Assembly (NCBI GenBank): GCA_017453985.1
Contig: JAFTDT010000107.1
Coordinates: forward strand, 1-63,145
DNA: 63,145 bases
Direction: 5' to 3'
Origin: Clostridia bacterium
GTDB lineage: Bacteria; Bacillota; Clostridia; Oscillospirales; Butyricicoccaceae
Of this stretch, positions 18,396 through 34,936 are shown one piece after another. The notes under the pieces were generated by a model. That model searched no databases. It saw only the letters and a list, made by a program, of their open reading frames with translations, and was not told the DNA's origin. The position numbers were made by a program, and so were the translations under genes. Position 1 is the first letter of the stretch. Every line of letters starts with the position of its first letter.

Positions 18396-19553
18396 TCATT
18401 CCTGAAAGCGCCCCTTCAGGACTGCTGCGCCGCTGCGGACGGCTTCTCTGCCCTTTGCCATCACGTGACGGACGGAAAAATCTTCGTTCAGCACCAGCAG
18501 ATCGGCGTCGGCGCCGACGCCGATGCAGCCCTTTTTGCCCGCCTGCCCGATGAGCCGGGCGGGATTTTCGGTGAAGAACCGCAGAGCGGTCTCCATCGGC
18601 AAGCCCTCCCGACTGATTATGCGGCGCAGCTCCTGCAGCAGAGTCGCGCTGGTGGAGTATGTCAACCCGATGCACTCGCCCCGCTCGTTGAAGGTGGGCT
18701 GGCTCCCGCCGGCGTCGGAGCTCATCGTGATGCGGCTGACCTCCGCGCCCTGCCTCAGCGCGCTGACCAGAGCCGCCGCCGAGCCTGCCTCGCTGGCGGG
18801 CAGATCGGCGGTGAAGTCGATATAGGCGCCCCTCTTGTTGAGTCTCGCGGCGTCCGCCACCAGCTCCGGCGAACGGCAGCAATGGGTGGGGAGAAAGCTC
18901 TGCGCGGGAACCTCGGAATGCTCCAGCGCCCAGAATATCTCGTCCATCCGGTGCTCGTGAGCACCCATATGGATCGTGACAAAGCCCGGCTTGCCGGAGA
19001 GCATGCCGCCGATGCGCGCCTCGGAAGCCAGACGGGCAAGCTCCTGCCCCGTGACGGCGGAGCCGCGATGGTCGGAAAGGGCGGTCTTGACGCCGATAAA
19101 CTTGTCGATCAGGGCGACGTCCTTTTCCACGTCGCCGAACAGGGTCTTGGCGGGCATGCGATAGCTGCCGGTGAGCGCCCATGCGGAGATGCCCTCCTCC
19201 TCCAGCGCGCGCACCTTGAACAGCAGGTTTTCCAGCCCGCGGGAGACGCCGTCGGTGCCCAGCAGCCCCACCACCGAGGTGACGCCGCTCAGGGTGAAGT
19301 CCGTGACCTGCAGCTCCGGCGTGCGGGAGGCAGGCCCCTGCTCGCCGCCGCCGCCGGTGACGTGGGTGTGGATATCCACCAGCCCGGGGCAAACGAGGGC
19401 GCCCTCCATATCCGGTACGGAGAGCTGCGGCGCGCCGAGCCATGCGCTCAGATTCTCTCCCACGGCGGCGATGCTGCATCCCTCAACGAGAATATCCCTT
19501 TTGCCCAGATGCTCGGGCGCATAAACGTCGCAGTTTTTCCATAATGTCAGCAT
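18396..19553 (-). CDS. iadA: Isoaspartyl dipeptidase (beta-aspartyl peptidase)
   Basis: Zinc amidohydrolase of 385 residues that splits beta-aspartyl dipeptides. Metal ligands align with E. coli IadA as I recall it: HTH (His62, His64), carbamylated Lys156 in GVK, His195 in IHMG, His224 in LPTH, and Asp280 in SSDAGGSQP. The substrate loop GGGGEQGP (67-74) and catalytic Tyr131 are present. It is typically cytoplasmic, with no signal peptide. It lies 30 bp after the RpiR regulator. IadA would finish the job of a cyanophycinase by splitting beta-Asp-Arg dipeptides; two cyanophycinase-family genes lie in the divergent operon. Confidence 0.93.
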   Translation of the reverse strand: MLTLWKNCDVYAPEHLGKRDILVEGCSIAAVGENLSAWLGAPQLSVPDMEGALVCPGLVDIHTHVTGGGGEQGPASRTPELQVTDFTLSGVTSVVGLLGTDGVSRGLENLLFKVRALEEEGISAWALTGSYRMPAKTLFGDVEKDVALIDKFIGVKTALSDHRGSAVTGQELARLASEARIGGMLSGKPGFVTIHMGAHEHRMDEIFWALEHSEVPAQSFLPTHCCRSPELVADAARLNKRGAYIDFTADLPASEAGSAAALVSALRQGAEVSRITMSSDAGGSQPTFNERGECIGLTYSTSATLLQELRRIISREGLPMETALRFFTENPARLIGQAGKKGCIGVGADADLLVLNEDFSVRHVMAKGREAVRSGAAVLKGRFQE

Positions 19554-19583: not shown

Positions 19584-20480
19584 TTATTTATTATCTTTCA
19601 CGGACTCGGCGCGGCTGCCGGTGTGGGCGGTAAAAATAAAGTCGCTGACGGCTTTTTCCTCCGCCAGAATATCGTCAAAGCGCGCGCCCAGCAGGTAGGA
19701 AATGCAGGACGCCAGCACGTTCATAAAGCTGACGGTGGCGCAGTGGGAGTTGTAATAATACCGTGCCGCCGTTCTGCAGAGAAAAACGCCGACGCCCTCC
19801 GCCGCCACCGGCGACTCCGTGCTGTCGGTGATGGCGATCATGCGCACGCCGCGGTAGCGGCAGAAGTCCACGATGCTTTCGATGGGCTGGTGATAGGGCG
19901 GGAAGGAAAGAAAAACAGCCCAGTCGTTTTTCCCCATCCGCGCCAGCGCCGACTGGATCGAATCGCTGTCGCCGACCTTGATGGAGGTGCACTTGATGCG
20001 CAGGAAGTTCAGCCTGTAGGAGAGATAATCCGCAAAAAGAAAGGATGCATCATGGGCAAACACCGTCACCTGCTCTGCCTCCAGCAGTCCGCGCGCGCAG
20101 TCAAAAAGAGCCTCCCTGTCCAGCCCGTTTATCATGCTGTGTATATTGCCGACGTCGTCCTCGCAAACGGCAGTCAGCATATCGCCGGCGTCGGCAAGCT
20201 CGCGATTTGCCGCGTCGCTTAAAAACGCGGGCGCAGCCGCCAGCCGCAGGCGCTCTTTGTTGTATTCCCGCAGTGCCTGCTTCAGCTCCACAAAGCTTTC
20301 CAGCCCCAGCGCCCGGCACATGCGGAGCACCGACACTTCGGACGCGCCTACCTTGACGCTCAGCTCCTTGAGGGTCAGATACGCCGCCTCATCGGGCGCG
20401 CCGATGATATACTCCGCGATAGACCGCTGTCTTGCCGTCAAGCCGTCCAGATTATGAAACAATTCCCCCAGCGATTTCAT
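19584..20480 (-). CDS. RpiR/MurR family transcriptional regulator
   Basis: Regulator of 298 residues. The N-terminal HTH_6 domain spans about 1-77, with LTLKELSVKVGASEVSVLRM (about 35-54) as the DNA-reading region. A C-terminal SIS domain (about 110-260) normally binds phosphosugars, but here the pocket residues VFAHDASFLFADYLSYRLN differ from the usual sugar-phosphate loop. RpiR proteins divergent from peptide or amino-acid uptake operons are known, so the ligand may not be a sugar. It is divergent from the peptide importer and its promoter overlaps a perfect palindrome, AAAGTATTTACTTT, so self-regulation is likely. Confidence 0.9.
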   Translation of the reverse strand: MKSLGELFHNLDGLTARQRSIAEYIIGAPDEAAYLTLKELSVKVGASEVSVLRMCRALGLESFVELKQALREYNKERLRLAAAPAFLSDAANRELADAGDMLTAVCEDDVGNIHSMINGLDREALFDCARGLLEAEQVTVFAHDASFLFADYLSYRLNFLRIKCTSIKVGDSDSIQSALARMGKNDWAVFLSFPPYHQPIESIVDFCRYRGVRMIAITDSTESPVAAEGVGVFLCRTAARYYYNSHCATVSFMNVLASCISYLLGARFDDILAEEKAVSDFIFTAHTGSRAESVKDNK

Positions 20481-20726: not shown

Positions 20727-22676
20727 ATGGACATGAAGCGAGCATTGGCACTGATACTGTGCGTCGTTATGCTGATCGCGATCTCGGCGGGCTGCGAAAA
20801 GGGAAACGATCCCGCCGGCGGAAACGGCACGGCGGGCGGCGGACAAATCGACCCCAACGCGAATTATTTAAAGGAATACAAATCCACCTTTTCCAAGCCG
20901 ATTACTACCATGAACCCATATACCACCACCGGTACCTCCGACTATATATTCATCGCCAATCTGGTAGACGGACTGGTGGAGACAGACCGCTATGACCGCG
21001 TCGTGGGCGCTCTCGCCGAGTCGTGGGAGCACAACGAGGATTACAGCGTCTGGACATTTTATCTCCGGCAGGGCGTCCGCTGGGTGGATCACACCGGCGC
21101 GGAGACCGATTATGAGGTGACGGCGGAGGACTTTGTCAGCGGCATCCGCTATGTGGCAGACCCAAATCATGCCGCCAGCAGCTTCAGCACCATCCGCAGC
21201 GTCATCAGCGGGCTTTATGACTACTATTATCTGCTGGTGGACGTGGATGACGGCACCGAGACCTCCATGACCCGCGAGCAGGCGGAGGCTGCCTTTGAGG
21301 ATACCGTCGGCGTCAAGGCGCTGGACAAATACACCGTGCAGTATACCCTTTCCGGCTCTTATCCTTACTTCCTCAGCTATGCGCAGCTCGACCTGATGCT
21401 GCCCGTCAATCAGGCGTTTCTGGACGCCGTGGGCGACGAGTTCGGCATCGCCAAGGAAAAGATGCTCTATAACGGCGGCTATTATATTTCGCAGTGGGAT
21501 CTGGACAAGATGGTCGTTCTGAGCAAGAACACCCATTACTGGGATCCGGACAGCCTGACCGTCGATACCCTCAGCTGGGAATACGTTTCCGACGGCATTT
21601 CCAGCCTGGAGATGTTCGAGCGCGGCAACATCACCTCCACCTCCCTCAGCTCGGAGGAGGTCGCCAGCGTCCGCGGCTCGGAGTGGGAGGATTACGTTTA
21701 CCTGTCTGAAAAGACGGTCACCACCTTCTGGTATTCCTTCAACTTTGCCACCGACAACCCCGAGATGGCTGCCGCCGTGCAGAACGAGAACTTCCGCAAG
21801 GCAATTTTCACCGCTATCGACAGCGTGACCGTTTCCGCCATCTGGGAGCCGAACGACCCCGCGTTTTTCTGCCGCTTCACCCTGCTGCCGGAAAACTGCA
21901 TGTTTGACGAAAACGGCAAGGACTATACCGACTACGACGCGCTGAAGCCCTACAAGGGCGTCGATCCATTCAGCGCCGAGACCGCAAGAGCTTATATGGA
22001 GCAGGCGGCAAAGGAGCTGTGCGAGAGCGACGGCGTCACCCTGAAGGGAGTTGCGCCCGGCGATGTGGACATGCTGCCCATCACCCAGTTCCACGCCGAC
22101 GGCAAGCTGCCCATCGACATCGTTTATTCCTCCAGCAGCTCCGACAGCGAAATGAAGAAGGCGACGCTGGTAAAGCAGATGCTGGAGACGTATCTGGGAA
22201 CCGATTACGTCAACGTGATCCTCGGCTATTCCTCCAACAGCTTCAGCGCCGACGTTTACGACCTCGGCAACTGGGATCTGGTGGACGACAGCTACGGCTT
22301 CCGTTACGCCGACCCCTCCGCCAATCTGGACCGCTGCACCTCCGATTACGATATCACCTACAGCTTTTACGACGTTCCGGAGTTTGACAGCATGGTAGAG
22401 CGCGCTACCGCCATATACGATATCAACGAACGCTATGAGGCATATTCGCAGGCGGAGGCGTGGCTGCTGGAGCATGCCTATATCAAGCCCTACATGTCCG
22501 GCGGCGGCTCCTATAAAATGACCCGCATCGTTCCTTACACCGTGCCCGGCGGCTATTTCGGCATGTCGCGGTTTAAGATGAAGGGCGCGCTCATTCGCGA
22601 GGATCCCATCACAGCGGCGGAGTATGCGGCGTTCACCGAGACTTACAACAAGGAAAAGGCAGCCTTCTCCAACTAA
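20727..22676 (+). CDS. Peptide-binding lipoprotein of ABC transporter (family 5)
   Basis: Solute-binding protein of 649 residues, lipid-anchored at Cys23 (lipobox AISAGC). Family-5 features include LVDGLVETDRYDRVVGALAE (about 75-94) and the C-terminal lobe with KPYMSGGGSYKMTRIVPY. It is longer than typical DppA (about 530), like OppA-type proteins from gut Firmicutes. As first gene after the regulated promoter it should capture the peptides released outside. Two ATG codons 6 bp apart follow AAGGAG; either may be used. Amino-acid similarity to the DppA at 1995-3578 is low beyond the fold. Confidence 0.92.
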   Translation: MDMKRALALILCVVMLIAISAGCEKGNDPAGGNGTAGGGQIDPNANYLKEYKSTFSKPITTMNPYTTTGTSDYIFIANLVDGLVETDRYDRVVGALAESWEHNEDYSVWTFYLRQGVRWVDHTGAETDYEVTAEDFVSGIRYVADPNHAASSFSTIRSVISGLYDYYYLLVDVDDGTETSMTREQAEAAFEDTVGVKALDKYTVQYTLSGSYPYFLSYAQLDLMLPVNQAFLDAVGDEFGIAKEKMLYNGGYYISQWDLDKMVVLSKNTHYWDPDSLTVDTLSWEYVSDGISSLEMFERGNITSTSLSSEEVASVRGSEWEDYVYLSEKTVTTFWYSFNFATDNPEMAAAVQNENFRKAIFTAIDSVTVSAIWEPNDPAFFCRFTLLPENCMFDENGKDYTDYDALKPYKGVDPFSAETARAYMEQAAKELCESDGVTLKGVAPGDVDMLPITQFHADGKLPIDIVYSSSSSDSEMKKATLVKQMLETYLGTDYVNVILGYSSNSFSADVYDLGNWDLVDDSYGFRYADPSANLDRCTSDYDITYSFYDVPEFDSMVERATAIYDINERYEAYSQAEAWLLEHAYIKPYMSGGGSYKMTRIVPYTVPGGYFGMSRFKMKGALIREDPITAAEYAAFTETYNKEKAAFSN

Positions 22677-22743: not shown

Positions 22744-23685
22744 ATGGGACGTTATCTGTTATCAAAGCTGGGGCAGGCAGTCGTCACCATAAGTCTGGTG
22801 ATGCTGGTGGTCTTTACCCTGCTGCGCTTTATGCCCACCGCAGGCTATTTTTCCAAGGAGCAATGGAAGGACATGACGGAGGCGGAAAAAACGGCATATC
22901 TGCGCAATATGGGCGTGCTTGACCCCTTGCCCCTCCAGCTTAAAAACTTTGTGACGAATCTGTTCCGCGGAGATTTGGGGCGAAGCATCGTCCTCTATCC
23001 GAACTCGCCCATCGGCGGGATTTTGGCGGAGAAGATACCCTATTCAATTCTGCTGAATATGATCTCGTGGTTCATTTCCGCCGCCATCGGCTTGCCGCTG
23101 GGCGTGGCGATGGCGCGGAGCAAGGGAGGGCTGGCGGACAAGCTGGGCACGGTTTACGTCGTTATCATTCGGGCGGTGCCGTCCATCATCATCCACTTCT
23201 TCATTCAGGTGTTTTTCTCCAAGTGGCTGGGTCTGCCCATGCTCTTTTACATCGAGCAGCCGATCTCGTGGATCTTGCCCACTATATCCATGTCTATCGG
23301 CTCGATCGCCGGCTACGGCGTATGGCTGCGCCGCTATATCGTGGACGAGGAGAACAAGGACTATATCAAGTTCGCCCGCGTCAAAGGGCTGCCGCAGAAA
23401 TACATCATGTGGCGGCACGTTTTCCGCAACGCCATCGTGCCCATCGCCATCAATATCCCTTCCGATTTTCTGCTGATGCTGTCCGGCTCGCTGGTCATCG
23501 AGAGCATGTATTCCATTCCCGGCACCGGCGGGCTGCTCATCAAATCCATCAAGGCGATGGACAACCCCATGGTGCAGGTGCTGGTGCTGATGTACGGCGC
23601 GCTGTCGGTTTTGGGCGTCTTTCTGGGCGACATCGTGGTATCCTTCGTGGATCCGCGCATCAAGCTGGTTGACAGCAACGACTGA
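22744..23685 (+). CDS. Peptide ABC transporter permease (DppB/OppB type)
   Basis: Permease of 313 residues. First helix about 7-29, extracytoplasmic loop with NLFRGDLGRSIVLYPN (about 72-87), coupling loop with YIKFARVKGLPQKYIMWRHV (about 207-226), and six helices overall. It follows the binding protein by 67 bp, with GCGAGGT as ribosome binding site, and pairs with the permease that starts 12 bp after it. Confidence 0.92.
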   Translation: MGRYLLSKLGQAVVTISLVMLVVFTLLRFMPTAGYFSKEQWKDMTEAEKTAYLRNMGVLDPLPLQLKNFVTNLFRGDLGRSIVLYPNSPIGGILAEKIPYSILLNMISWFISAAIGLPLGVAMARSKGGLADKLGTVYVVIIRAVPSIIIHFFIQVFFSKWLGLPMLFYIEQPISWILPTISMSIGSIAGYGVWLRRYIVDEENKDYIKFARVKGLPQKYIMWRHVFRNAIVPIAINIPSDFLLMLSGSLVIESMYSIPGTGGLLIKSIKAMDNPMVQVLVLMYGALSVLGVFLGDIVVSFVDPRIKLVDSND

Positions 23686-23697
23686 GGAGGGGCGAGC

Positions 23698-24642
23698 ATG
23701 GACGAAAAAACCGTATCCGTTCCGGAAAATCTTCCGCAGGAGCTTTTTGCCAGAGCGGAGTTTCACGAGGAAAAGCTGGAGGACACCGGCTTTTCCAACT
23801 ATTCCTATTGGCGCAGCACCATCAACACCTTTTTCAAAAGCACGACCGTAAAGGTTGTCGTGGCGCTGGTGCTGATCATGGCGGCGTACACCGTCATCTA
23901 TCCAATGGTCACGGAGCGCGACCCCTATACCGTTTCTCTCTCGGCGCGCGAGTGGAATCTCCCGCCCTCGCGGGAGCATCCCTTTGGCACCGACGGCGTG
24001 GGCAGGGACATCTGGGCGCGCGTCTGGTTCGGCACCCGCACCTCGCTGCTGCTGAGCGTGGCGGTGGCGGTGTTTGAGGTGGGGCTGGGCGTCGTCATCG
24101 GCGCGCTGTGGGGCTTTTACCGCAAGCTGGATACCGTGATGTTTGCCATATACAACACGCTGACCAACGTACCCAGCACCATCTATCTGGTGCTGATTGC
24201 CTATATCATGAAGCCCAGCGTCGTCACCATCATCATCGCGCTGGTGGCGACGGGCTGGATCAGGGAGGCGCGGTGGTTCCGCAGCCGCATTCTTGCGCTG
24301 CGCGAGGTGGATTACAACGTCGCCTCCATCTGTCTCAACACCCCCACCCGCCGCATTATTGGGCGCAACGTCATCCCGCATCTGGTCAGCCTGATCATCA
24401 TGGACGCGGCGCTGACCATACCCTATTCCATCGGCTCGGAGGTGTTTCTCAGCTATATCGGCGTGGGACTGCCCGCCGACCTGTGTACTCTGGGCAATCT
24501 GGTCAATCAGGGGCGCTCCGCCTTTCTGGTATATCCCTTCCAGATGATTTTCCCGACCATGATCCTCTGCTTTATCACCGTTTCGTTTTATATCATCGGA
24601 AACAAGTTCGCGGATGCTTCCGACCCGAAAAACCATCTGTGA
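23698..24642 (+). CDS. Peptide ABC transporter permease (DppC/OppC type)
   Basis: Permease of 314 residues with a cytoplasmic N-terminal extension of about 50 residues before the first helix (about 56-73). The DppC hallmark HPFGTDGVGRDIWARVWFGT is at about 97-116 and the coupling loop at about 203-220. An extended, charged N-terminus (ELFARAEFHEEKLED) is common in OppC proteins. It is cotranscribed with the neighbouring transport genes. Confidence 0.92.
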   Translation: MDEKTVSVPENLPQELFARAEFHEEKLEDTGFSNYSYWRSTINTFFKSTTVKVVVALVLIMAAYTVIYPMVTERDPYTVSLSAREWNLPPSREHPFGTDGVGRDIWARVWFGTRTSLLLSVAVAVFEVGLGVVIGALWGFYRKLDTVMFAIYNTLTNVPSTIYLVLIAYIMKPSVVTIIIALVATGWIREARWFRSRILALREVDYNVASICLNTPTRRIIGRNVIPHLVSLIIMDAALTIPYSIGSEVFLSYIGVGLPADLCTLGNLVNQGRSAFLVYPFQMIFPTMILCFITVSFYIIGNKFADASDPKNHL

Positions 24643-24657: not shown

Positions 24658-26643
24658 GTGAAGGAAAAGATATTTGAAGCAAAGGACGTCGTTATCAAGT
24701 TCAATCTCCGCGGCAAGGTGCTCACCGCCATCCGCGGCGCCTCCATCGACTTATATCACGGCGAAACGCTGGCGATCGTGGGCGAGTCCGGCTCCGGCAA
24801 GAGCGTCTTTACCAAGTCGTTTATCGGCATGCTGGACAAAAACGGCTGGGTGGAAAGCGGCACGATGAAAATGGACGGCGTGGACTTTTCGCAATATAAG
24901 ACGGAAAAGGAATGGCTCGCCATCCGCGGCAAAAAAATCGCCATGGTCTTTCAGGACCCCATGACCTCGCTCAATCCGGTAAAGACCGTGGGAGAACAGA
25001 TCCGCGAGGTGATAACGTGGAACTTCGGCACGGAGAAGGAGGAGGCAAAGCGGCAGGCGATCGAGCTGCTGCGTCAGGTAGGTATTCCCGAGCCGGAGCT
25101 GAGGTACAGGCAGTATCCGCACCAGTTTTCCGGCGGTATGCGGCAGCGCGTCGTCATCGCCACCGCCATCGCCTGCCGTCCCCGCATCCTCATCTGCGAC
25201 GAGCCGACCACCGCGCTGGACGTGACCGTGCAGGCGCAGATACTGGAGCTTATCAAACGGCTGCAGAAGGAGCTGGACATGTCGGTGATCTACATAACCC
25301 ACGATCTGGGCGTGGTCGCCAACGTCGCCGACAGGGTGGCGGTTATATACGCCGGTCAGATCGTGGAGCACGGGCTGGCGGACGAGATCTTCAAGGATCC
25401 GCGCCATCCCTATACCAAGGCGCTGCTGCGATCTCTGCCGCAGCTGGGCGTGCGCGGGCACGACCTCCATTCCATCAAAGGCTCGCCGCCCAATCTGTAT
25501 AAGGAGATCAAGGGCGACGCCTTTGCGCCGCGCAACCCCGAGGCGATGAAGATCGACTACGTTTGCGAGCCGCCCTTCTTCAAGGTAACGGACACGCATT
25601 ACGCCAAGACGTGGCTTTTGAGCGAGCAGGCGGCGGATTATCGCCGCGAGCTGGAGCAAAAGAACGGAGAGCAGGAGCTTTTGCCCGCCGCCCCCGTCGA
25701 CTTCAGCTCGGCGGAAAAGCTGGTACAGGTAAAAAACCTGACCGTCCAGTTCAAGCTGGGGCGCAGCCGCTTCAGCGCCGTGAAAAACGTCACCTTCGAC
25801 ATTCATCGCGGCGAGACGCTCTCGCTGGTGGGCGAGTCCGGCTCGGGCAAGACCACCATCGGCAAGGCGATCCTAAAGATCTGTCACAGCAGCGGCGGAG
25901 ACATACTCTACAAGGGCAAGTCGGTCATCGGCAAGCTGCCGCGTCAGGAGATGGCAGCGTTTCGCAAAAGCGTGCAGATGATCTTTCAGGACCCCATGGC
26001 TTCGCTCAACGAGCGCGCCAAGGTGGAATATATCATATCCGAGGGACTTTACAACTTCCGTCTGTTCAAAAACGACCGGGAGCGGCAGGACAAGGTGGCG
26101 CAGGCAATGCGCAGCGTGGGGCTGCTGCCGGAATACGTCACCCGCTTTCCCCATGAGTTTTCCGGCGGACAGCGGCAGCGCATCGGCATCGCCCGCGCGC
26201 TGGCGCTCGAGCCGGAGTTCATCGTGGCGGACGAGCCGATCTCCGCGCTGGACGTTTCCATTCGGGCGCAGGTGATCAATCTGCTCAATAAGCTCAAGCG
26301 GGAAAAGGGCTTTACCTATCTGTTCATGGCGCATGACCTCAGCGTGGTGCGCTTTATCTCCGACCGCATCGCCGTGCTGTACAAGGGGCAGCTGGTGGAG
26401 CTGGCGGAGGCGGAGGAGCTTTTCGCCCATCCGCTGCACCCATACACCAACGCGCTTTTGCAGGCGGCGCCAGTGCCCGACCCGGACGTGGAGCGCGGCA
26501 AAAAGGTCGCGGTCTATAACCCCGCCATGCACGATTATGCGACCGATCTGCCGGAGTGGACGGAAATTCGTCCCGGGCATTTCATCCGGGCAAACCGCGC
26601 CGAGCTGGAGAGCTATCGCCGCCGGCTGGAGGCGGAGGCATAA
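24658..26643 (+). CDS. Fused double ATPase of peptide ABC transporter (OppD-OppF fusion)
   Basis: 661 residues with two complete ABC ATPase domains in one chain. Domain 1 has Walker A GESGSGKS (42-49), signature FSGGMRQRV (about 157-165) and Walker [13 protein letters not shown] (about 178-189), then the oligopeptide C-terminal extension (about 270-310). Domain 2 has Walker [10 protein letters not shown] (about 393-401), signature FSGGQRQRI and Walker [13 protein letters not shown]. The importer at the window start instead uses separate ATPases, at least for its first. Start GTG at 24658 follows GGGGAGGCGGAG. The fusion ensures equal amounts of the two motor halves. Confidence 0.94.
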
Positions 26644-26673
26644 GGCGTATCACGAACAAAAGGAGATGTGCTT

Positions 26674-27858
26674 ATGAGCGGCACGCTGTTGATCGTCGGC
26701 GGAGGACTGACCGCCTCGCAGGACGAGGTTTTTTCCGCCCTGATAGAAAAGGCGGGCGGCGCGGAAAACGCCCGCATCGCTTTCATTCTCACCGCCTCCG
26801 GCGAAAATCCGGACGAGCTGTTCCGCAGCTATCGCAGCGATCTCGTAAGGCTGGGGCTGAGGGAGGAGCAGGTCCTGCTGGTCCCGATTTATGCCCCGCA
26901 TGTGCTGGACGAGCGGGGATATAACGCCGTGACCGGCGACGCCGAGGGGCTGCCGGACTGTCTTGAGGGCGTCACCGGCGTCTGGTTCACCGGAGGCGAC
27001 CAATATTTTACCCATCAATGCCTGCTGCGACGCGACGGCAGCGACACCGCCCTGCTCGCCCGTCTGCGCGAGCTTTACGAAAGCGGCGGAGTTATCGGCG
27101 GCTCAAGCGCGGGAGCCGCCATCATGAGCAGGGTGATGATCGGCAGCGGCAACGATCGGGGTATTCTGACACACCCCGTCGTTTGGGGATATGCGGATTA
27201 TGACGCTCAATGCGAAGCGGACGACCCCTGCGAGCCGCTGATCTTGGCGAGAGGGCTGGGGTTTTTCCCCGAAGGCGTCGTGGATCAGCATTTCAACAAG
27301 CGTCCTCGCATGCTGCGGCTGATCGAGGCGTGCCTCAGCAATACCGAGGGCTTTCGCGTGGGCTACGCCGTTTCGGAGGATACCGCGCTGGTCTATCACG
27401 CGGGACGCTTCACCGTTTTGGGCAGCGCAGGCGTTTATGTGGCGGACTGCCGCGGAGCCGTCCGCCTCGGCGCGGGAAATTACCGCGGCGTGGTGATGCA
27501 CGCCCTCCACCGCGGCGACGGCTTTGACTGCCGGAGCCTGCGGGCAAGCATGGCGCGGGAGTCCCCGGAGAGGGACTGCGACTTTTTTCCCGACTACGTC
27601 TCCGGCGGCATGCTCCACAGTCCGCTGTTTGACGATATGATTGAAAAGCGGCTGCTGCGCGCAAAGGACGGCGCCGCGCCCATCAACGGCGAAGGGCTTC
27701 CCTGCGTCAGGGGCGCGGAGATCAGCGACCTTCACGGCGAGACCGCGATAACGGTGGCGGAATACGTCCTCCGTCCCGAGACGCGGGGCTATCGCGGCGC
27801 GCACGCCTCCTTTACCGAGCTGGGGCTGAATATCCTCTCCAAAAAAATCGAGCTGTAA
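26674..27858 (+). CDS. Cyanophycinase-family peptidase (S51), cytoplasmic
   Basis: Serine peptidase of 394 residues, no signal peptide. The nucleophile elbow GGSSAGAA puts Ser145 in the GxSAGA motif of cyanophycinase/peptidase E. FTGGDQ (105-110) matches the oxyanion-side FxGGxQ motif, and DQHFNKRPRMLRL (204-216) matches the cyanophycinase active-site histidine segment (His206). Cyanophycinases cut multi-L-arginyl-poly-L-aspartate to beta-Asp-Arg dipeptides. Start ATG at 26674 is 8-9 nt from AAGGAG; the GTG two codons earlier is too close. Its place behind a peptide importer suggests it trims imported beta-linked peptides. Substrate identity is inferred. Confidence 0.88.
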   Translation: MSGTLLIVGGGLTASQDEVFSALIEKAGGAENARIAFILTASGENPDELFRSYRSDLVRLGLREEQVLLVPIYAPHVLDERGYNAVTGDAEGLPDCLEGVTGVWFTGGDQYFTHQCLLRRDGSDTALLARLRELYESGGVIGGSSAGAAIMSRVMIGSGNDRGILTHPVVWGYADYDAQCEADDPCEPLILARGLGFFPEGVVDQHFNKRPRMLRLIEACLSNTEGFRVGYAVSEDTALVYHAGRFTVLGSAGVYVADCRGAVRLGAGNYRGVVMHALHRGDGFDCRSLRASMARESPERDCDFFPDYVSGGMLHSPLFDDMIEKRLLRAKDGAAPINGEGLPCVRGAEISDLHGETAITVAEYVLRPETRGYRGAHASFTELGLNILSKKIEL

Positions 27859-27924: not shown

Positions 27925-28362
27925 TCAAAACGCGGAAAGGAGCAGCAGCGTCGCCCCTGCCGCCGCCCAGGCGACGGCGCGAATAACATGGATATCGTCC
28001 TTGTCAAAGGCTTCGCCGAGCGCGTCGGCAGTCTCCGCCAAATCGTCGTCGAAGGTGTGGCGGCTTCCGTTGAGGCTGAGGCGCGGGCGGACGGACTTGT
28101 CCGCGCCGCGAAGATAATAGGGCGTCTCGGGTGGGCGTCTGCGCCGCAGCAGCGCGCCGAAATCTGTGCCGCGGCGCCGCAGCCAGCTTATCCAGCCCGC
28201 CAGCAGATAGCACGCACCCAGCAGAGCGGCAGTCCAGCCCGCGTAAACGCGCCCCTGCGGGGAAAAGACGCGCACCAGCAGCCAGACGGCGGCTCCGGCA
28301 GAGGCGTGCCAGAGATACTTTTTCAAGATTGGCGCCAGCAAATCTCGCTTTTCGCTATTCAT
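27925..28362 (-). CDS. Small membrane protein of unknown function
   Basis: 145 residues on the opposite strand inside an otherwise plus-strand run. I do not recognise the family. Two adjacent hydrophobic segments at about 15-33 and 39-59, a charged RRRG linker, a cytoplasmic middle region, and a C-terminal hydrophobic segment (about 127-144) give three membrane helices. The start ATG follows AGGCGGTGAAGCG, one mismatch from the consensus ribosome binding site, which supports it as a real gene. It could limit read-through between the peptidase gene and the next operon part. Confidence 0.6.
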   Translation of the reverse strand: MNSEKRDLLAPILKKYLWHASAGAAVWLLVRVFSPQGRVYAGWTAALLGACYLLAGWISWLRRRGTDFGALLRRRRPPETPYYLRGADKSVRPRLSLNGSRHTFDDDLAETADALGEAFDKDDIHVIRAVAWAAAGATLLLLSAF

Positions 28363-28417: not shown

Positions 28418-29296
28418 ATGAAAGAGATAACAGTCACGGAATGCGGCGTGTCCGCGACCATCGAACGTCATACCTTCGGCAGCGGCTCGCCCCATATCTT
28501 TTTCACCGGCGGCGTTCACGGCAACGAGGTGACGGGGATCTGGGTCGCGCGCAGGCTGGCGGACTTTTTTGCCGCCAACCCTCCGGTAAAAGGCACGGTC
28601 TCCGTCATGCCGCAGGTCAATCCCGCCGCCGCCCGCTGTATGCAGCGGCGCAACCCCTTTGACGGCAGCGATCTTAACCGCATTTTCCCCGGCGATCCGG
28701 ACGGCACGATGGGACAGCGTCTGGCGGACGCCGTCTGGTGTGAAACTGCCGACGCCGATATCCTCGTCGATCTGCACTGCTGCGGGCAGCACGGCTTGCC
28801 CTATATCCTTTCGATATACGGCGAGTCGCGGGAGGTGCGCGAGCTGGTGCGGCAGATCACCCTGCCGACGGCAATTCACTCCGAGGGCACGTCCGGACAG
28901 CTTTTCACCGAGGCAGTCCGCCGGAGGCGGCAGGCGGCGTGCATCATCGAGCTGCCCTCCGGCGTGTGCGGAGGCGCGGTCAACGTTCAGGTTGGCGAGC
29001 AATGTCTGGCGGCGCTGCTGGATATGCTGCGGGCGAGGGGCGTCGTCTCCGGCGCCGTCGAGGGCGATGAGCCTGCCTTTTACGGCAGGCTGCTGGACGC
29101 CGAGGCACCGCGGGCAGGGCTGTGGAGTCCCGCCGTCCGCAAGGGAGAGAGCGTTTCGGCAGGGCAGGTCATCGGCACGGTGGACGGCGAGCCGGTCGCG
29201 GCTCCCGCCGAAGGCTTTGTCATGAGCGTTATGCCCTGCGCCTATCTCATGCCGGGCGACACGTGGGTGATGACCTATATTCAGCCGGAGGCATAG
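28418..29296 (+). CDS. Succinylglutamate desuccinylase/aspartoacylase-family zinc hydrolase
   Basis: M14-type zinc deacylase or carboxypeptidase of 292 residues, no signal peptide. Zinc ligands are His34 and Glu37 in GGVHGNEVTG and His120 in DLHCCG; the catalytic Glu is Glu178 in IIELP. RRNPFDGSDLNRIFPG (78-93) matches the conserved substrate loop of the AspA/AstE family. A C-terminal beta domain (about 240-290) includes AGQVIGTVDGEPV. Family members release acyl groups from N-acyl amino acids such as N-acetylaspartate or N-succinylglutamate. In this neighbourhood an aspartyl or arginyl amide is a reasonable guess, not shown by the sequence. Confidence 0.85.
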   Translation: MKEITVTECGVSATIERHTFGSGSPHIFFTGGVHGNEVTGIWVARRLADFFAANPPVKGTVSVMPQVNPAAARCMQRRNPFDGSDLNRIFPGDPDGTMGQRLADAVWCETADADILVDLHCCGQHGLPYILSIYGESREVRELVRQITLPTAIHSEGTSGQLFTEAVRRRRQAACIIELPSGVCGGAVNVQVGEQCLAALLDMLRARGVVSGAVEGDEPAFYGRLLDAEAPRAGLWSPAVRKGESVSAGQVIGTVDGEPVAAPAEGFVMSVMPCAYLMPGDTWVMTYIQPEA

Positions 29297-29376: not shown

Positions 29377-32337
29377 ATGAAAAAAGCGATCCTGTCCGTT
29401 GCGCTGCTGCTGGCGCTGCTGTGCGTTCTGACGGCATGCGATCAGAACCAGAGCAAGACCGAGCCGAGCATGCTTTACAGCGAAGCGCCGTCCCGCTATG
29501 ATTACGGCGTTTTTGTCAACCTGGATCTCAACGCGGGCGACGCCGTCAGCGACTACGCGGTGGCGTTCAACAACTTTGCCGACCGCACGGCGTACGTCGT
29601 CTACTCCGAGCTGGGACAGACCCCCGTCAGCGAGCGTCTGTCCGCCATGAACGAGGCGGAGCTGCAGGCGCTGGCGGGAGAAAACAAGGCGCTTGAGATC
29701 AAGAGCAACGACGGCTTTCACAGCCTGCCCGCCTCGCTGCTCAGTCTGGACGGTCACGCCTTTTCCGGCGCGGAAAAGGAGACCTTCTATTATGTTTACG
29801 TCGCCTACAAAGACACCGACGGGATTGCCGTGGAAAAGGCTCCCCGCATGATCACGCCCAAGGACGGTCCCGAGGCGCTCAAGCAGTATGGCGCAAGCTC
29901 CGTCGGAGCCATCGTCCCCGCCGGCGGCGCCACCTCGATCTATGCCGAGGACTCTGCCTACTCGCCGGAATATATCGACGCGCTCAAGCAGGGCGCGGCG
30001 GAGGCGGGAATACAGACGCCGCGCGTGGCTGTCATCGAGACCACCGTGGGCGCCGAGAGGGACATGTACGACGACATGTTTCTGCCGGACGGCGATTATG
30101 CCTCTTACGCCGATACCTTCCGGGCGCGGGGCATGGAGCCGGTGTATATCCCGTTGGGCATCGACAACTTTGAGCACGTGCAGAACTGCAAATATTTTGC
30201 CGATCTGATCCGCTCCTGCCATATCGTGTTCTTTACCGGCGGCGATCAGGTCTATTACGGGCTGGTGCTGGCAAACCGCGACGGCAGCAATTCGCTGGTG
30301 GCGGAGGCGATACTCGACGTGCTCCGCGCCGGCGGCACGCTGGGCGGCAGCAGCGCGGGCGCGGCGGCGATGTCCGGAACGGTCCTCACCAACGGAGCCT
30401 CCGGCTCTTACCTGCCTTTCTACTGGAACGGCGCGGAAAAGGTCAGCGTTACCTCCTATTCCGCAGAAACCGTGGCGGACAACGCCGCGAAAAACGAGGG
30501 CAACAACATGATCTACGACAGCATCGGCTTTGTGGAGCCGGTTCTTGGGCGCGACGTGCTGTTTGACACCCACGTGGACGCCAGAGGGCGTCTCGGGCGC
30601 GTCATCGCCGGCTTGAGAGACGCCGACCCCGCGGGGCTGGCGATCGCCATGGACGAGACCGCCGGCATCCGCATTGACGGCGCGAGCAAGACCGGCACGG
30701 TCTTCGGTACCAGCGGCGTATATATCATAGACGCGGCAAACGCCGAGTGGAATCCCGCCGGCGTCGTCGGCGAGTTCGGCGTTACCGGGCTGAAGCTGCA
30801 CTACCTCACCGCGGGCGACAGCTATGACTTCGCCTCCGGCGCGGTCACTCCCGCAAGCGACAAGCAGCTCATCACAGCCGCCTCCGGCGCGAGCTATGCC
30901 TCTGCCGATATCTTCGGCACCGACGAGACGGGAGCCACCGTGCTTTCGCTGGCGCACAGCGCCGACTCCTCCGTGACGGCGGAGGTGCTCAACGTCTCCC
31001 TCATGCCCTATCTGGCGGAGAACAGCTTTACCGTCACCTTTGACAAGACGGCGGACACCGCCTGCTATACAAATGGCAAGCTCTTCCCAAACGAGAAATA
31101 TTTCCACGACTTCCAGCAGACCGCCGTGGCGGGGCTGAGCGTCAGCGTCGCTTACGGTCCCAGCCGCTTTGATCCCTCTGCCGCCAACGGCTTTGCCGCG
31201 CTGTCCGCCGAGACGGAGAGCAATGAATACGCGGTGGATATCAAGTTCTCCGCGCCCATCTCCGTGGGCTACGAGGGCAACAACAAGTACTTCCTCGACT
31301 GCGAGGAGCCGGAAAACGTGCCCACCGACTACGTTGAGGTCTACGATGCCGCAGGCAGTGTAAAGGAGCAGGACCGCACCTATACCTTCAAGATATTGGA
31401 CGACGACACGCTGCGCATCGTGCTGGTGGACGACGTTTATTTTGCCGAGGGCGACGTGATCATCACTAAGACCACTATCACCAGCCTCTACGGTGAAAAC
31501 GCCGAGGCAAACGTGACTTTTACCCTGCAGGGCGGCGTCTGGACTGCCGAAAGCGGCGGCAGCGCGCCGTTCCTGCCCCAGTCCGCCAAGACCGAGGGCA
31601 ATGAATACGCCGTGGAGATCACCTTCAGCGAGGCGCTGAGCGTGGGCTATGAGGGCAGCAACAACTACTTCCTCGACTGCGAGGAGCCGGAGAACGTGCC
31701 CACCGACTACGTTGAGGTCTACGACGCCGCGGGCAGCGTAAAGGAGCAGGACCGCACCTATACCTTCAAGCTGCCGAAGCCCAACGTGCTGCGCATCGTG
31801 CTGGTGGACGACGTTTATTTCGCCGAGGGCGACGTGATCACCGTCAAGACCTCCGTCACCTCCGCCGGCGGGACCAACGCGGCGCGCGACGTCACCTTCA
31901 CGCTTACTGACGGTCAGTGGCTGAAGGAGGGCGAAGAGGCGCAGCCCGTGGAGGAGCCTGTCCCCGCCGAGCATTTTCTGGCGGAGAGCGCCGTGACCGA
32001 GGATAACGAATACGCCGTGGAGGTCACCTTCAGCGACCTGCTGAGCGTGGGCTATGAGGGCAGCAACAAGTACTTCCTCGACTGCGAGGAGCCGGAGAAC
32101 GTGCCCACCGACTACGTCGAGGTCTACGACGCCGCGGGGAGCGTAAAGGAGCAGGACCGCACCTATACCTTCAAGCTGCCCGAGGACAACGTGCTGCGCA
32201 TCGTGCTGGTGGACGACGTCTATTTCGCCGAGGGCGACGTGATTACCGTCAAGACCTCCGTCACCAGCCTGTTCGGCGCCGCCCTTGAGGAGGAGGCGAC
32301 CTTCAAGCTGGAAAACGGCGTCTGGAACAAGCAGTAA
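29377..32337 (+). CDS. Surface lipoprotein cyanophycinase with three C-terminal repeats
   Basis: 986 residues. Signal peptide with lipobox ending at Cys21 (CVLTAC) predicts anchoring outside the membrane. After an N-terminal beta-rich region (about 30-160) comes a cyanophycinase domain (about 175-470): FFTGGDQ, nucleophile Ser326 in GGSSAGAA, and DTHVDARGRLGRV with His399 in place of the catalytic-His segment. Residues about 610-986 hold three nearly identical repeats of roughly 126-135 residues, each with GYEG, FLDCEEPENVPTDYVEVYD and RIVLVDDVYFAEGDVI. Secreted cyanophycinases let bacteria attack extracellular polymer. The repeats may bind substrate or cell wall. Ribosome binding site GAGGAGG; GC content matches the neighbours. 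Confidence 0.88.
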   Translation: MKKAILSVALLLALLCVLTACDQNQSKTEPSMLYSEAPSRYDYGVFVNLDLNAGDAVSDYAVAFNNFADRTAYVVYSELGQTPVSERLSAMNEAELQALAGENKALEIKSNDGFHSLPASLLSLDGHAFSGAEKETFYYVYVAYKDTDGIAVEKAPRMITPKDGPEALKQYGASSVGAIVPAGGATSIYAEDSAYSPEYIDALKQGAAEAGIQTPRVAVIETTVGAERDMYDDMFLPDGDYASYADTFRARGMEPVYIPLGIDNFEHVQNCKYFADLIRSCHIVFFTGGDQVYYGLVLANRDGSNSLVAEAILDVLRAGGTLGGSSAGAAAMSGTVLTNGASGSYLPFYWNGAEKVSVTSYSAETVADNAAKNEGNNMIYDSIGFVEPVLGRDVLFDTHVDARGRLGRVIAGLRDADPAGLAIAMDETAGIRIDGASKTGTVFGTSGVYIIDAANAEWNPAGVVGEFGVTGLKLHYLTAGDSYDFASGAVTPASDKQLITAASGASYASADIFGTDETGATVLSLAHSADSSVTAEVLNVSLMPYLAENSFTVTFDKTADTACYTNGKLFPNEKYFHDFQQTAVAGLSVSVAYGPSRFDPSAANGFAALSAETESNEYAVDIKFSAPISVGYEGNNKYFLDCEEPENVPTDYVEVYDAAGSVKEQDRTYTFKILDDDTLRIVLVDDVYFAEGDVIITKTTITSLYGENAEANVTFTLQGGVWTAESGGSAPFLPQSAKTEGNEYAVEITFSEALSVGYEGSNNYFLDCEEPENVPTDYVEVYDAAGSVKEQDRTYTFKLPKPNVLRIVLVDDVYFAEGDVITVKTSVTSAGGTNAARDVTFTLTDGQWLKEGEEAQPVEEPVPAEHFLAESAVTEDNEYAVEVTFSDLLSVGYEGSNKYFLDCEEPENVPTDYVEVYDAAGSVKEQDRTYTFKLPEDNVLRIVLVDDVYFAEGDVITVKTSVTSLFGAALEEEATFKLENGVWNKQ
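31200..32334 (+). repeat. Three tandem coding repeats in the lipoprotein cyanophycinase
   Basis: Three units start near 31204, 31588 and 31987; the shared TTCCTCGACT falls at 31291, 31669 and 32074, giving periods of 378 and 405 bp. Units 2 and 3 share long identical stretches, so copy number may vary by recombination and assemblies may collapse them. Confidence 0.9.
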
Positions 32338-32439: not shown

Positions 32440-32514
32440 GAATAGGCAATGCCGAACATGAAAATACCGGTCTCCGCAAAAGCGCAGAGACCGGTATTTT
32501 TCCGTTGCCTATTC
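32440..32514. terminator. Large bidirectional terminator
   Basis: A 14-bp stem AAAATACCGGTCTC/GAGACCGGTATTTT (32461-32474 with 32487-32500) lies inside an outer stem GAATAGGCAA/TTGCCTATTC (32440-32449 with 32505-32514). It separates the convergent lipoprotein-cyanophycinase gene with its remnant tail from the dockerin-like gene. Confidence 0.88.
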
Positions 32515-32515
32515 T

Positions 32516-34936
32516 TTATTTCTTCCACGCCTGAAGCGTGAGATACATGATGGTCGTCCAGTCGTTGGCGTCCACCCTGTTACTGCGGCTGCCGCCGGCA
32601 GCCGTGCCTGTCATATCCGCCAGCAGCGCCCAGAGGTCAAAGCTCTGCCCGTTCAGCGTAAAACCCGGATAGTCCATCACGTCATACCGTGACGACGCCT
32701 GCAGCGTCCAGCGCATGATGGTCGTCCAGTCATTGGCGTCCATGCTGCCGTCAAGGTTCACGTCGCCCGGCGTGGCGATCAGGCATTCGCTGCCGTCCGC
32801 CATCGTCAGCCGCATCGCCACCGGCTTCAGCGCCGTCACCGTCGCGGTAATGTTGCCGCCGGAGCTGCCAAAGCTGATTTTGAGCTTGTCCCCCACAGTC
32901 AGGCTGCCGTCCGCCTGCTCCGTCACCTGCTGCGAAACCGCGCCGCTGTGCGTGAGGCTTTCATATTTTACGCCTTTGAACAGCTCCTTTGCCTTGGCGA
33001 GATTTGCTGCGCTGTATGCCATCGGCGCGCCGTTGAGCCTTATGCCCACGGTATCGCTCGTCTGTGTGGGATCATATCCGCGATTTCTCGGCTCGCCCGT
33101 CGCTTCCGCGTCCATGCCCTGCCAGCGCAGCAGCTTGATCGCGTCGGTTTCCACATCGTCCTTGGTGAAGGAAAGCACGCCGTTCGCTTCGGGGATCGTG
33201 ATGACGCCGCTCTTGCTTTCCACGACGTTCATACGCTCGGATATACTGCCCGACGAAGATTGGTAGCTGATTTGTCCCGTTCCGTCGTTAACCCAGCCGT
33301 CCAGCTTCAGCTCAAAGCTGTCGCCCGGCTTGGCAAGCACTCCGCGCAGGATTATATCAAACTCAAAATATCTGTTGCCTGCCTCGTCCACTGAGGAAAT
33401 GTCGCCGCCCACAGCAAACGCATAGCGCGCCTTGTATATCCCTGCCGCTTCCTCGTCCGTCATGCTGCCGACATAGTTTGTAGCCGAACCATAAACACCA
33501 AACTTATCGTCGCCCTCGAAAGACACAAGCTTATTATTCGCCAGCGCCTCCTGCGTAGGATATACCGCGCCGCTCTCCGCAGCGCCCACGGCAAGCATGA
33601 ATATGCCGCCAGACGGATACATGCCCTCCACCGTCTCGTCGTAGGTCAGCCGCGCCCTTGCGCTTAACTGATAATAGCCGTAGCCCTCCGGCGCTTCGCC
33701 AAGTCCCAGCGTGCCAAGATAGCGCGGCTCCTCCTCCGTCGCCTCGGCGTCGAACACGGTAAATCTGCCCTCATACGCGCCCAGCTTGTCCGTGGGAGAT
33801 TCCTCATATACAGTAAAAGCAGCAAACGCCGTTGCCCACTCGCCGTTGTAGCCGTCCTCTCCCAGCGCTGCCAGCGCTATGGTATACGTCCCCGCCTCGG
33901 TTGGCGTGAAAGTTGCAGTACCGGTAAAATACGACTTTACAAACACTTCTTCACCTGTAAGATAATCGCCAAACCAAATTCCCATGTCATAATTGACGGC
34001 ATTTTTTGCCGACGGGGTGATAGTCACAGTTTCACCAAGTAGATATGTTTCTTTATTGGTGTGTACACTTGCATTGGAGGGCTTATCTATAACGGTAAAC
34101 ATGCAAGAAGCGTCGACAAAGCCCGCGCTATTTATTGCGCTTATGAAAATCTTATACGATCCTTCCTTATCCGGCTTATATGCAGTCGTCCCCGTAAAGC
34201 CGTTATAATTGCTGTATACGACATTTCCATCGAGCTCTATTCGCATTGTATAACTCGTTGCTCCTGTTGCCGACGGGGTGATGGTTACCGTTTCTCCAAG
34301 TGTATATGTTGATTTATTAGTCCGCACACTTGCATTGGAGGGCTTTGCAGACGCTCCCACCACATTTTTAGTACAGCGATACAGCGACAATGCGTAGCCC
34401 GAAGCCGAAAAGTCGCCGATTCCTTTGCTCGTCGTCAGGTCTGTCCATGTATGAGTAGCCGATCTTACTCCCACGGACGATACGTTGTCATACTTCGTAA
34501 TTCCGCTATCCGTCACCTCATATACCATTGCGATGTGCCGCGACGTCGCCTTTGAGTTTCTATACTGAAAGACATCTCCCGATTGCGCGGTCTTCAGCAG
34601 CGCCAGAACTGCGTTGTTGGTAGATGCGGTAGAGCCGACCTGATACCAATTGCTGTTCACCGTCAGCTCGGTCGCCGATTTCTGGCTCGGTACACCTACG
34701 CCAAACAAGTCTATAGAAAAGTTGTATAGGAACGCCCAACAGCCCGACATCGTCGGAGTATCAAAAGCCGTATACGATTTCCCCTTGTATTTGCTGCTGT
34801 TGAACAGCTCATACATTCTGCTTCTGATAACGCTCGGATGGGACGCCGCCTCCACCTCAAGGCTGAGTCCCGCATGTACAAGGCTGCATATCATCAGGAT
34901 TGCCAATACTGCGGATAAAATTCGTTTTCTTTTCAT
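32516..34936 (-). CDS. Secreted cysteine-peptidase-fold protein with Ig-like repeats and dockerin-like C-terminus
   Basis: 806 residues with signal peptide (about 1-31). Residues 32-190 look like an NlpC/P60- or CHAP-like fold: Cys66 in MSGCWAF, SGDVFQY (119-125) and His134 in SRHIAMV. Two Ig-like repeats start at about 198 and 285 (KPSNASV... GETVTITPSA). A large beta-rich region follows (about 370-650). The C-terminus has two dockerin-like calcium motifs, GDVNLDGSMDANDWTTI and RVDANDWTTI, the usual duplicated pair. It would be secreted and may dock to a cohesin partner, none of which is in the window. Substrate unknown. The gene is divergent from a small XRE regulator. Confidence 0.78.
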   Translation of the reverse strand: MKRKRILSAVLAILMICSLVHAGLSLEVEAASHPSVIRSRMYELFNSSKYKGKSYTAFDTPTMSGCWAFLYNFSIDLFGVGVPSQKSATELTVNSNWYQVGSTASTNNAVLALLKTAQSGDVFQYRNSKATSRHIAMVYEVTDSGITKYDNVSSVGVRSATHTWTDLTTSKGIGDFSASGYALSLYRCTKNVVGASAKPSNASVRTNKSTYTLGETVTITPSATGATSYTMRIELDGNVVYSNYNGFTGTTAYKPDKEGSYKIFISAINSAGFVDASCMFTVIDKPSNASVHTNKETYLLGETVTITPSAKNAVNYDMGIWFGDYLTGEEVFVKSYFTGTATFTPTEAGTYTIALAALGEDGYNGEWATAFAAFTVYEESPTDKLGAYEGRFTVFDAEATEEEPRYLGTLGLGEAPEGYGYYQLSARARLTYDETVEGMYPSGGIFMLAVGAAESGAVYPTQEALANNKLVSFEGDDKFGVYGSATNYVGSMTDEEAAGIYKARYAFAVGGDISSVDEAGNRYFEFDIILRGVLAKPGDSFELKLDGWVNDGTGQISYQSSSGSISERMNVVESKSGVITIPEANGVLSFTKDDVETDAIKLLRWQGMDAEATGEPRNRGYDPTQTSDTVGIRLNGAPMAYSAANLAKAKELFKGVKYESLTHSGAVSQQVTEQADGSLTVGDKLKISFGSSGGNITATVTALKPVAMRLTMADGSECLIATPGDVNLDGSMDANDWTTIMRWTLQASSRYDVMDYPGFTLNGQSFDLWALLADMTGTAAGGSRSNRVDANDWTTIMYLTLQAWKK

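Follow-up and report, generated by a model that had tools for sequence, protein, structure and literature searches.

A lipid-anchored CphE-type cyanophycinase with three C-terminal repeats in a putative cyanophycin-scavenging locus of a Clostridia bacterium

A lipoprotein enzyme with a repeated C-terminal tail

We analyzed a 63,145-nt stretch of DNA from a gut-type Clostridia bacterium (the window). The lipoprotein encoded near its middle is best read as a new architecture within the known cyanophycin pathway: a CphE-type cyanophycinase with a lipid anchor at its N-terminus and three direct repeats in its C-terminal 377 residues. Its gene forms the end of a cyanophycin-scavenging gene set. Taken as a whole, the system is tentatively interpreted as an outer, tethered CphE-type enzyme of a scavenging locus that carries an Ig-like, granule-binding tail. 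The layout of the gene is as follows.

29377-32337, plus strand: lipoprotein CphE-type cyanophycinase with three C-terminal repeats (986 aa, ATG start)
29377-29439, plus strand: signal peptide and lipobox LTAC with lipidated Cys21 (read from the sequence)
29482-29871, plus strand: N-terminal domain, residues 36-165, without a family (the S51 relative L046 aligns to part of it)
29872-30846, plus strand: S51 catalytic region, residues 166-490 (from alignment with S51 domains)
30847-31203, plus strand: C-terminal extension of the enzyme, residues 491-609, partly common to L046 and L035
31204-31581, plus strand: repeat 1, residues 610-735 (repeat alignment)
31582-31986, plus strand: repeat 2, residues 736-870 (repeat alignment)
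31987-32334, plus strand: repeat 3, residues 871-986 (repeat alignment)
32461-32501, no strand: inverted repeat AAAATACCGGTCTC...GAGACCGGTATTTT between two convergent genes (read from the sequence)

The sequence GAGGAGG lies close 5' of the ATG. Export, as in extracellular CphE, is indicated by the signal peptide and the LTAC lipobox, which were recognized by eye; the lipobox Cys is retained in the lipoproteins of three relatives (L025, L026, and L019), and all four lipoproteins compared have a lipobox followed by two to four repeats. The inverted repeat downstream of the gene is likely a bidirectional terminator, and it was absent from the output of a consensus scan. Beyond it, on the minus strand (32516-34936), lies the gene for a secreted 806-aa protein with repeated beta-rich domains and two C-terminal dockerin-like motifs (DANDWTTIM...), for which no Pfam match was found at E 0.001.

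The S51 enzyme domain

In profile searches the central region of the lipoprotein matched the solved cyanophycinases 7uqv, 3en0, and 7uqw with E-values of 7e-14 to 7e-8. The protein scored 68.1 bits against TIGR02069 (cut-off 126.6) and 12.8 bits against Pfam S51 (gathering score 23.9); because both scores are below the cut-offs, we label it CphE-type and not a certified equivalog. Alignment with eleven other S51 domains recovered the full set of key residues (Gln291, Ser326, Asp397, Thr398, His399, Arg403, Arg405, Arg408, and Glu427). Ser326, the nucleophile within GxSxG, is aligned together with His399 and Glu427, and the CphB pocket residues Gln101, Asp172, Arg178, Arg180, and Arg183 correspond to Gln291, Asp397, Arg403, Arg405, and Arg408. 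Thr398 stands at CphB position 173, which is Gln in CphB and Thr in the extracellular CphEal (PMC3235067). This position is Thr in all of the lipoproteins and Gln in all of the neighboring non-exported S51 proteins, which makes the lipoprotein CphE-like and the neighboring S51 protein CphB/CphI-like. The original prediction of a lipoprotein cyanophycinase with three C-terminal repeats was borne out by the ORF, the LTAC lipobox, and the S51 active-site set; by alignment, the label of cyanophycinase is justified at the level of family S51 and of the active-site residues, though it does not extend to the TIGR02069 cut-off.

CphE of Pseudomonas alcaligenes/P. anguilliseptica (PMC3235067) is likewise an exported S51 enzyme with catalytic Ser, His, and Glu; it shares the pocket Gln, Asp, and three Arg, and it too has Thr in place of CphB Gln173. 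CphEal is encoded by a 1260-bp gene and has a cleaved Sec signal (PMC3235067), whereas the protein described here has a lipid anchor instead, an additional N-terminal domain, and 377 residues of repeats (Ig-like by model). The C-terminal extension had been flagged as not known from cyanophycinases; indeed, it is absent from characterized CphE and is without a named sequence family.

A gene set for cyanophycin scavenging

The genes upstream of the lipoprotein gene are listed below.

18396-19553, minus strand: iadA, isoaspartyl dipeptidase (M38), predicted to cleave beta-Asp-Arg (TIGR01975, 402.6 bits against 331.25)
19584-20480, minus strand: RpiR/MurR-type regulator (HTH_6 and SIS), 64% identical to the same-place gene in G078
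20727-22676, plus strand: OppA-type peptide-binding protein (SBP_bac_5, E 2.8e-44)
22744-23685, plus strand: OppB-type permease (profile matches)
23698-24642, plus strand: OppC-type permease (profile matches)
24658-26643, plus strand: fused OppD-OppF ATPases (two ABC_tran domains, oligo_HPY)
26668-27858, plus strand: second cyanophycinase, cytosolic-type, CphB/CphI-like (TIGR02069, 142.2 bits against 126.6)
27925-28362, minus strand: small membrane protein within the locus, kept at the matching place in G078
28418-29296, plus strand: AstE/AspA-family zinc hydrolase (PF24827, E 9e-24), 64% identical to the syntenic L026 gene

The iadA product matches the isoaspartyl dipeptidases 1onw (E. coli) and 8dqn, with E-values down to 1.7e-93. 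The second cyanophycinase is without a signal peptide, has the DQH motif and the pocket residues, and matches 7uqv and 3en0. No Pfam match was found for the small membrane protein. Cyanophycinase, isoaspartyl dipeptidase, and transporter genes are thus clustered, and the set resembles the "cyanophycin utilization locus" of Ben Hania et al. (cited in PMC10206079). A search of three genomes for cyanophycin synthetase returned none, the matches being partial ligase hits of at most 150 bits (cut-off 850); in the organism's own genome (97.7% complete) the best match reached 147 bits, in the ligase part only, against the same cut-off. As a reading of the pathway, the resemblance together with the missing synthetase makes it well supported that the locus would serve to scavenge cyanophycin from the surroundings. 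Relative to the utilization locus as it is cited in PMC10206079, the locus here has in addition the AstE/AspA-family hydrolase, the RpiR-type regulator, and the repeat-bearing lipoprotein.

AstE/AspA-family genes act as beta-Asp-Arg hydrolases in Proteobacteria, and the Firmicutes enzyme has been reported as undiscovered (PMC10206079). Given that role and that gap, the gene at 28418-29296, which lies between the two cyanophycinase genes as its counterparts do in L019, L025, and L026, is a candidate for a second beta-Asp-Arg hydrolase, though iadA is also present. In the proposed pathway the membrane-tethered lipoprotein would cut external cyanophycin to beta-Asp-Arg, and the Opp transporter would import the dipeptide and perhaps short oligomers too. 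The cytosolic-type cyanophycinase would finish such imported oligomers, and IadA, perhaps with the AstE/AspA enzyme, would split beta-Asp-Arg into Asp and Arg.

Sequence, composition, and predicted fold of the repeats

Over 90 residues the three repeats are pairwise 79, 81, and 91% identical in protein and 83, 83, and 92% identical in DNA. An independent repeat scan also recovered three copies of 300 nt each, with 80-81% identity to the copy taken as reference. Judged by these alignments, the similarity lies far beyond chance. Both motifs of the predicted common core are found in all three repeats, with FLDCEEPENVP at positions 639, 765, and 900 of the protein and DDVYFAEGDV at positions 685, 811, and 946. 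A predicted length of 126-135 residues fits the first two repeats (126 and 135), but the third, at the C-terminus, has 116.

Twelve repeat copies, taken from four proteins that have 2, 3, 3, and 4 of them, align over 113 positions. Across the twelve copies, residues 21-62 are invariant at 23 of 42 positions and residues 87-113 at 6 of 27; the mean entropy was 0.47 in the middle segment (21-62) vs. 1.21 in codons 87-113. The description of the repeats as near-identical applies to their middle segment only. The conserved segment holds YFLDC and QDR[TV]YTF. Each repeat of this exported protein also contains one invariant Cys (residues 642, 768, and 903) without a partner Cys inside the repeat.

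The repeats are acidic (20% D+E, 6% K+R, pI 4.05). Their acidity had been offered as suited to binding an arginine-rich polymer, an argument that is weak, as the adjoining secreted OppA is acidic too (16% D+E, 7% K+R, pI 4.27). Moreover, cyanophycin has one free carboxylate per arginine, and it is therefore not simply a polycation.

Single repeats gave nothing over the gathering cut-off in Pfam (best E 0.014), and a PDB profile search with the repeat returned no matching chain. A Pfam hit to pNTSase1 (27 bits on the whole protein) was rejected, since it summed three weak copies. The fold prediction suggested with the original claim was carried out on one repeat: the AlphaFold model, built from 9 sequences (pLDDT 72, pTM 0.65, loop 23-29 below 50), is a beta-sandwich. 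Its nearest solved folds are the MG-type domain of E. coli alpha-2-macroglobulin, SbsC, TssM, SbsB, CopC, and Sap, at Z 6-8 (maximum 8.0), a range that does not discriminate, with rmsd 2.3-3.0 over 75-89 residues. Since a Z under 8 may mean no more than a common arrangement, we regard an Ig-like fold of the repeat as probable rather than proven. In a viral fold library the model found generic Ig-like matches only. A model of the full-length lipoprotein (pLDDT 38, three sequences) was set aside. The repeats would resemble SbsC, SbsB, Sap, the MG domains, and CopC in their predicted beta-sandwich (Z 6-8); they differ in having no sequence match to them and in carrying YFLDC, QDR[TV]YTF, and one Cys each.

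Evolution of the repeats

High DNA identity had been taken as a sign of recent expansion. If the copies were recent, every part of the repeat should be closer within the gene than to its counterparts in the sister genus (L025). In codons 1-20, matching positions in the window and L025 are 91% identical, vs. 72% for copies within the window. The order is reversed in codons 31-50, with 78% between genomes vs. 96% within the window. Site counts follow the same division: codons 1-20 have 0 gene-specific and 17 position-specific sites, and codons 21-62 have 8 and 2, respectively. Third codon positions in codons 21-66 gave 0.67 between genomes and 0.84 within the gene; the enzyme-domain background at third positions (same-amino-acid codons only) was 0.66, equal to the between-genome level of the repeat.

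Copies 1-3 thus pair one-to-one with the sister-genus copies at the repeat edges, and only codons 21-62 are homogenized. This pattern indicates that the arrangement of copies 1-3 predates the split of the two genera and that the middle was homogenized afterwards, most simply by intragenic gene conversion. On this sequence pattern we replace recent expansion with concerted evolution.

Relatives and distribution

The locus is retained in G078, G079, and L026/G1194, with iadA nearby in G078 and L026/G1194. The rumen-type MAG RUG14283 (G079/L025) has a contig that begins inside the Opp genes, and its iadA is found on a different contig. A comparison of repeat copies, also proposed at the outset, gave 2, 3, and 4 repeats in the lipoproteins of the three relatives. 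G078 has an arginase gene beside the cluster (TIGR01229, 268 bits). The three relatives also have a gene for a beta-lactamase-fold serine hydrolase between OppDF and the cytosolic cyanophycinase, which is missing from the window:

L025, 3533-4924: beta-lactamase-fold serine hydrolase
L019, 14753-16129: beta-lactamase-fold serine hydrolase
L026, 14793-16172: beta-lactamase-fold serine hydrolase

True repeat copies were found in 3 of 87 genomes of the family. There was no further copy elsewhere in the organism's own genome (2.06 Mb, 97.7% complete). A search of 394 genomes of the order turned up none beyond the family, and in 398 genomes of the phylum the only matches were short and weak, with E-values of 0.005 or above. 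A match in G082 was rejected as a chance match to an ABC-F protein. Viral contigs gave nothing with the repeat; in plasmids, the sole match to the full-length lipoprotein was to the S51 domain of one archaeal cyanophycinase.

Other S51 proteins also carry accessory regions. L034 and L036 are secreted Bacillota S51 proteins with a C-terminal LysM. L046, from another family, is 36% identical to the lipoprotein in the S51 region and ends in a single domain of repeat-like size, a Pro/Glu-rich stretch, and an IPQTG sortase signal. That domain resembles the repeat by eye. Its homology to the repeat was not established: the HMM gave no match, and 38 of 1000 shuffles scored as well. These secreted proteins are like the lipoprotein in joining an exported enzyme to a C-terminal attachment or accessory region; the module itself is different in L034, L036, and L046, with homology only suggestive for the last. 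C-terminal attachment modules are therefore not unique to the lipoprotein. L035 (1126-3474, minus strand; G794) encodes a membrane-anchored S51 relative with Ig-like domains, in which catalytic Ser and His have been lost but the RGRLGR pocket motif is kept; it is an apparent pseudoenzyme. Profile comparison of the repeat with its Ig-like part gave nothing. L047 (283-2808, minus strand; G1071) encodes a secreted protein with two tandem S51 domains, beside an amidohydrolase-like ORF.

Possible roles of the repeats

The repeats probably hold the enzyme either to its insoluble substrate or to the surface of the cell, and on balance we favor a binding role for them. They follow the enzyme domain at the end away from the lipid anchor and would form a multivalent tail that keeps the enzyme on the insoluble polymer, a role that may be likened to that of carbohydrate-binding modules in glycosidases. 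With some reservation, we slightly favor the cyanophycin granule as the target, on two grounds: cyanophycin is an insoluble substrate, and attachment to the cell is already provided by the lipid anchor. The middle segment is both conserved and homogenized, as would fit a binding surface that is repeated, acts through avidity, and tolerates changes in the number of copies. Folding could instead account for the conservation of residues 21-62. A fuller proposal, possible but rather doubtful, sees in the repeats the first modules dedicated to cyanophycin binding: Ig-like domains that would dock the surface enzyme multivalently to insoluble granules and be kept similar by intragenic gene conversion.

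It is also conceivable, if somewhat doubtful, that the repeats bind or pack on the cell's own surface (peptidoglycan, a secondary wall polymer, or an S-layer) or serve as plain structural Ig-like filler. The LysM of L034 and L036 and the Pro/Glu-rich stretch with IPQTG of L046 occur at the same end of their S51 proteins and make the wall a serious rival target, and structural Ig-like domains of S-layer proteins (SbsC, SbsB, and Sap) are among the solved folds closest to the model, at Z values that do not discriminate. However, no wall- or S-layer-binding family, the kind of match named at the outset as refuting the original reading, fits the repeats in sequence. The suggestion that they span the wall sits poorly with the layout of the protein: with the anchor N-terminal and the repeats at the opposite end, beyond the enzyme, they are not a stalk and cannot lift the enzyme from the membrane. 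The filler version leaves the 23 invariant residues of the 42 in the middle segment unexplained.

We consider it unlikely that the repeats make protein-protein contacts, either in oligomerization of the enzyme or in docking to the OppA lipoprotein for dipeptide hand-over; the lipoprotein and OppA share one locus and the invariant Cys of each repeat could join contacts, but no partner domain was identified. It is very improbable that the locus is a general dipeptide-scavenging system whose S51 peptidase acts on different isoaspartyl or acidic peptides: despite the lipoprotein's sub-threshold TIGR02069 score and the promiscuity of the IadA and Opp families, both S51 proteins have all of the cyanophycinase pocket residues, the partner S51 protein passes the cyanophycinase cut-off, and the arginase gene adjoins the cluster in G078.

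Significance

If the repeats are structural, the lipoprotein represents an ordinary architecture within a scavenging pathway that is already known. The locus also supplies, with its AstE/AspA-family gene, a testable Bacillota candidate for beta-Asp-Arg hydrolysis. If the repeats bind cyanophycin, they would constitute a module for a nitrogen-rich peptide polymer, with use in the purification or labeling of granules. Granule docking, if true, would give gut Clostridia modules for a peptide polymer that parallel carbohydrate-binding modules, and would show how these bacteria exploit the cyanophycin of ingested or resident bacteria.
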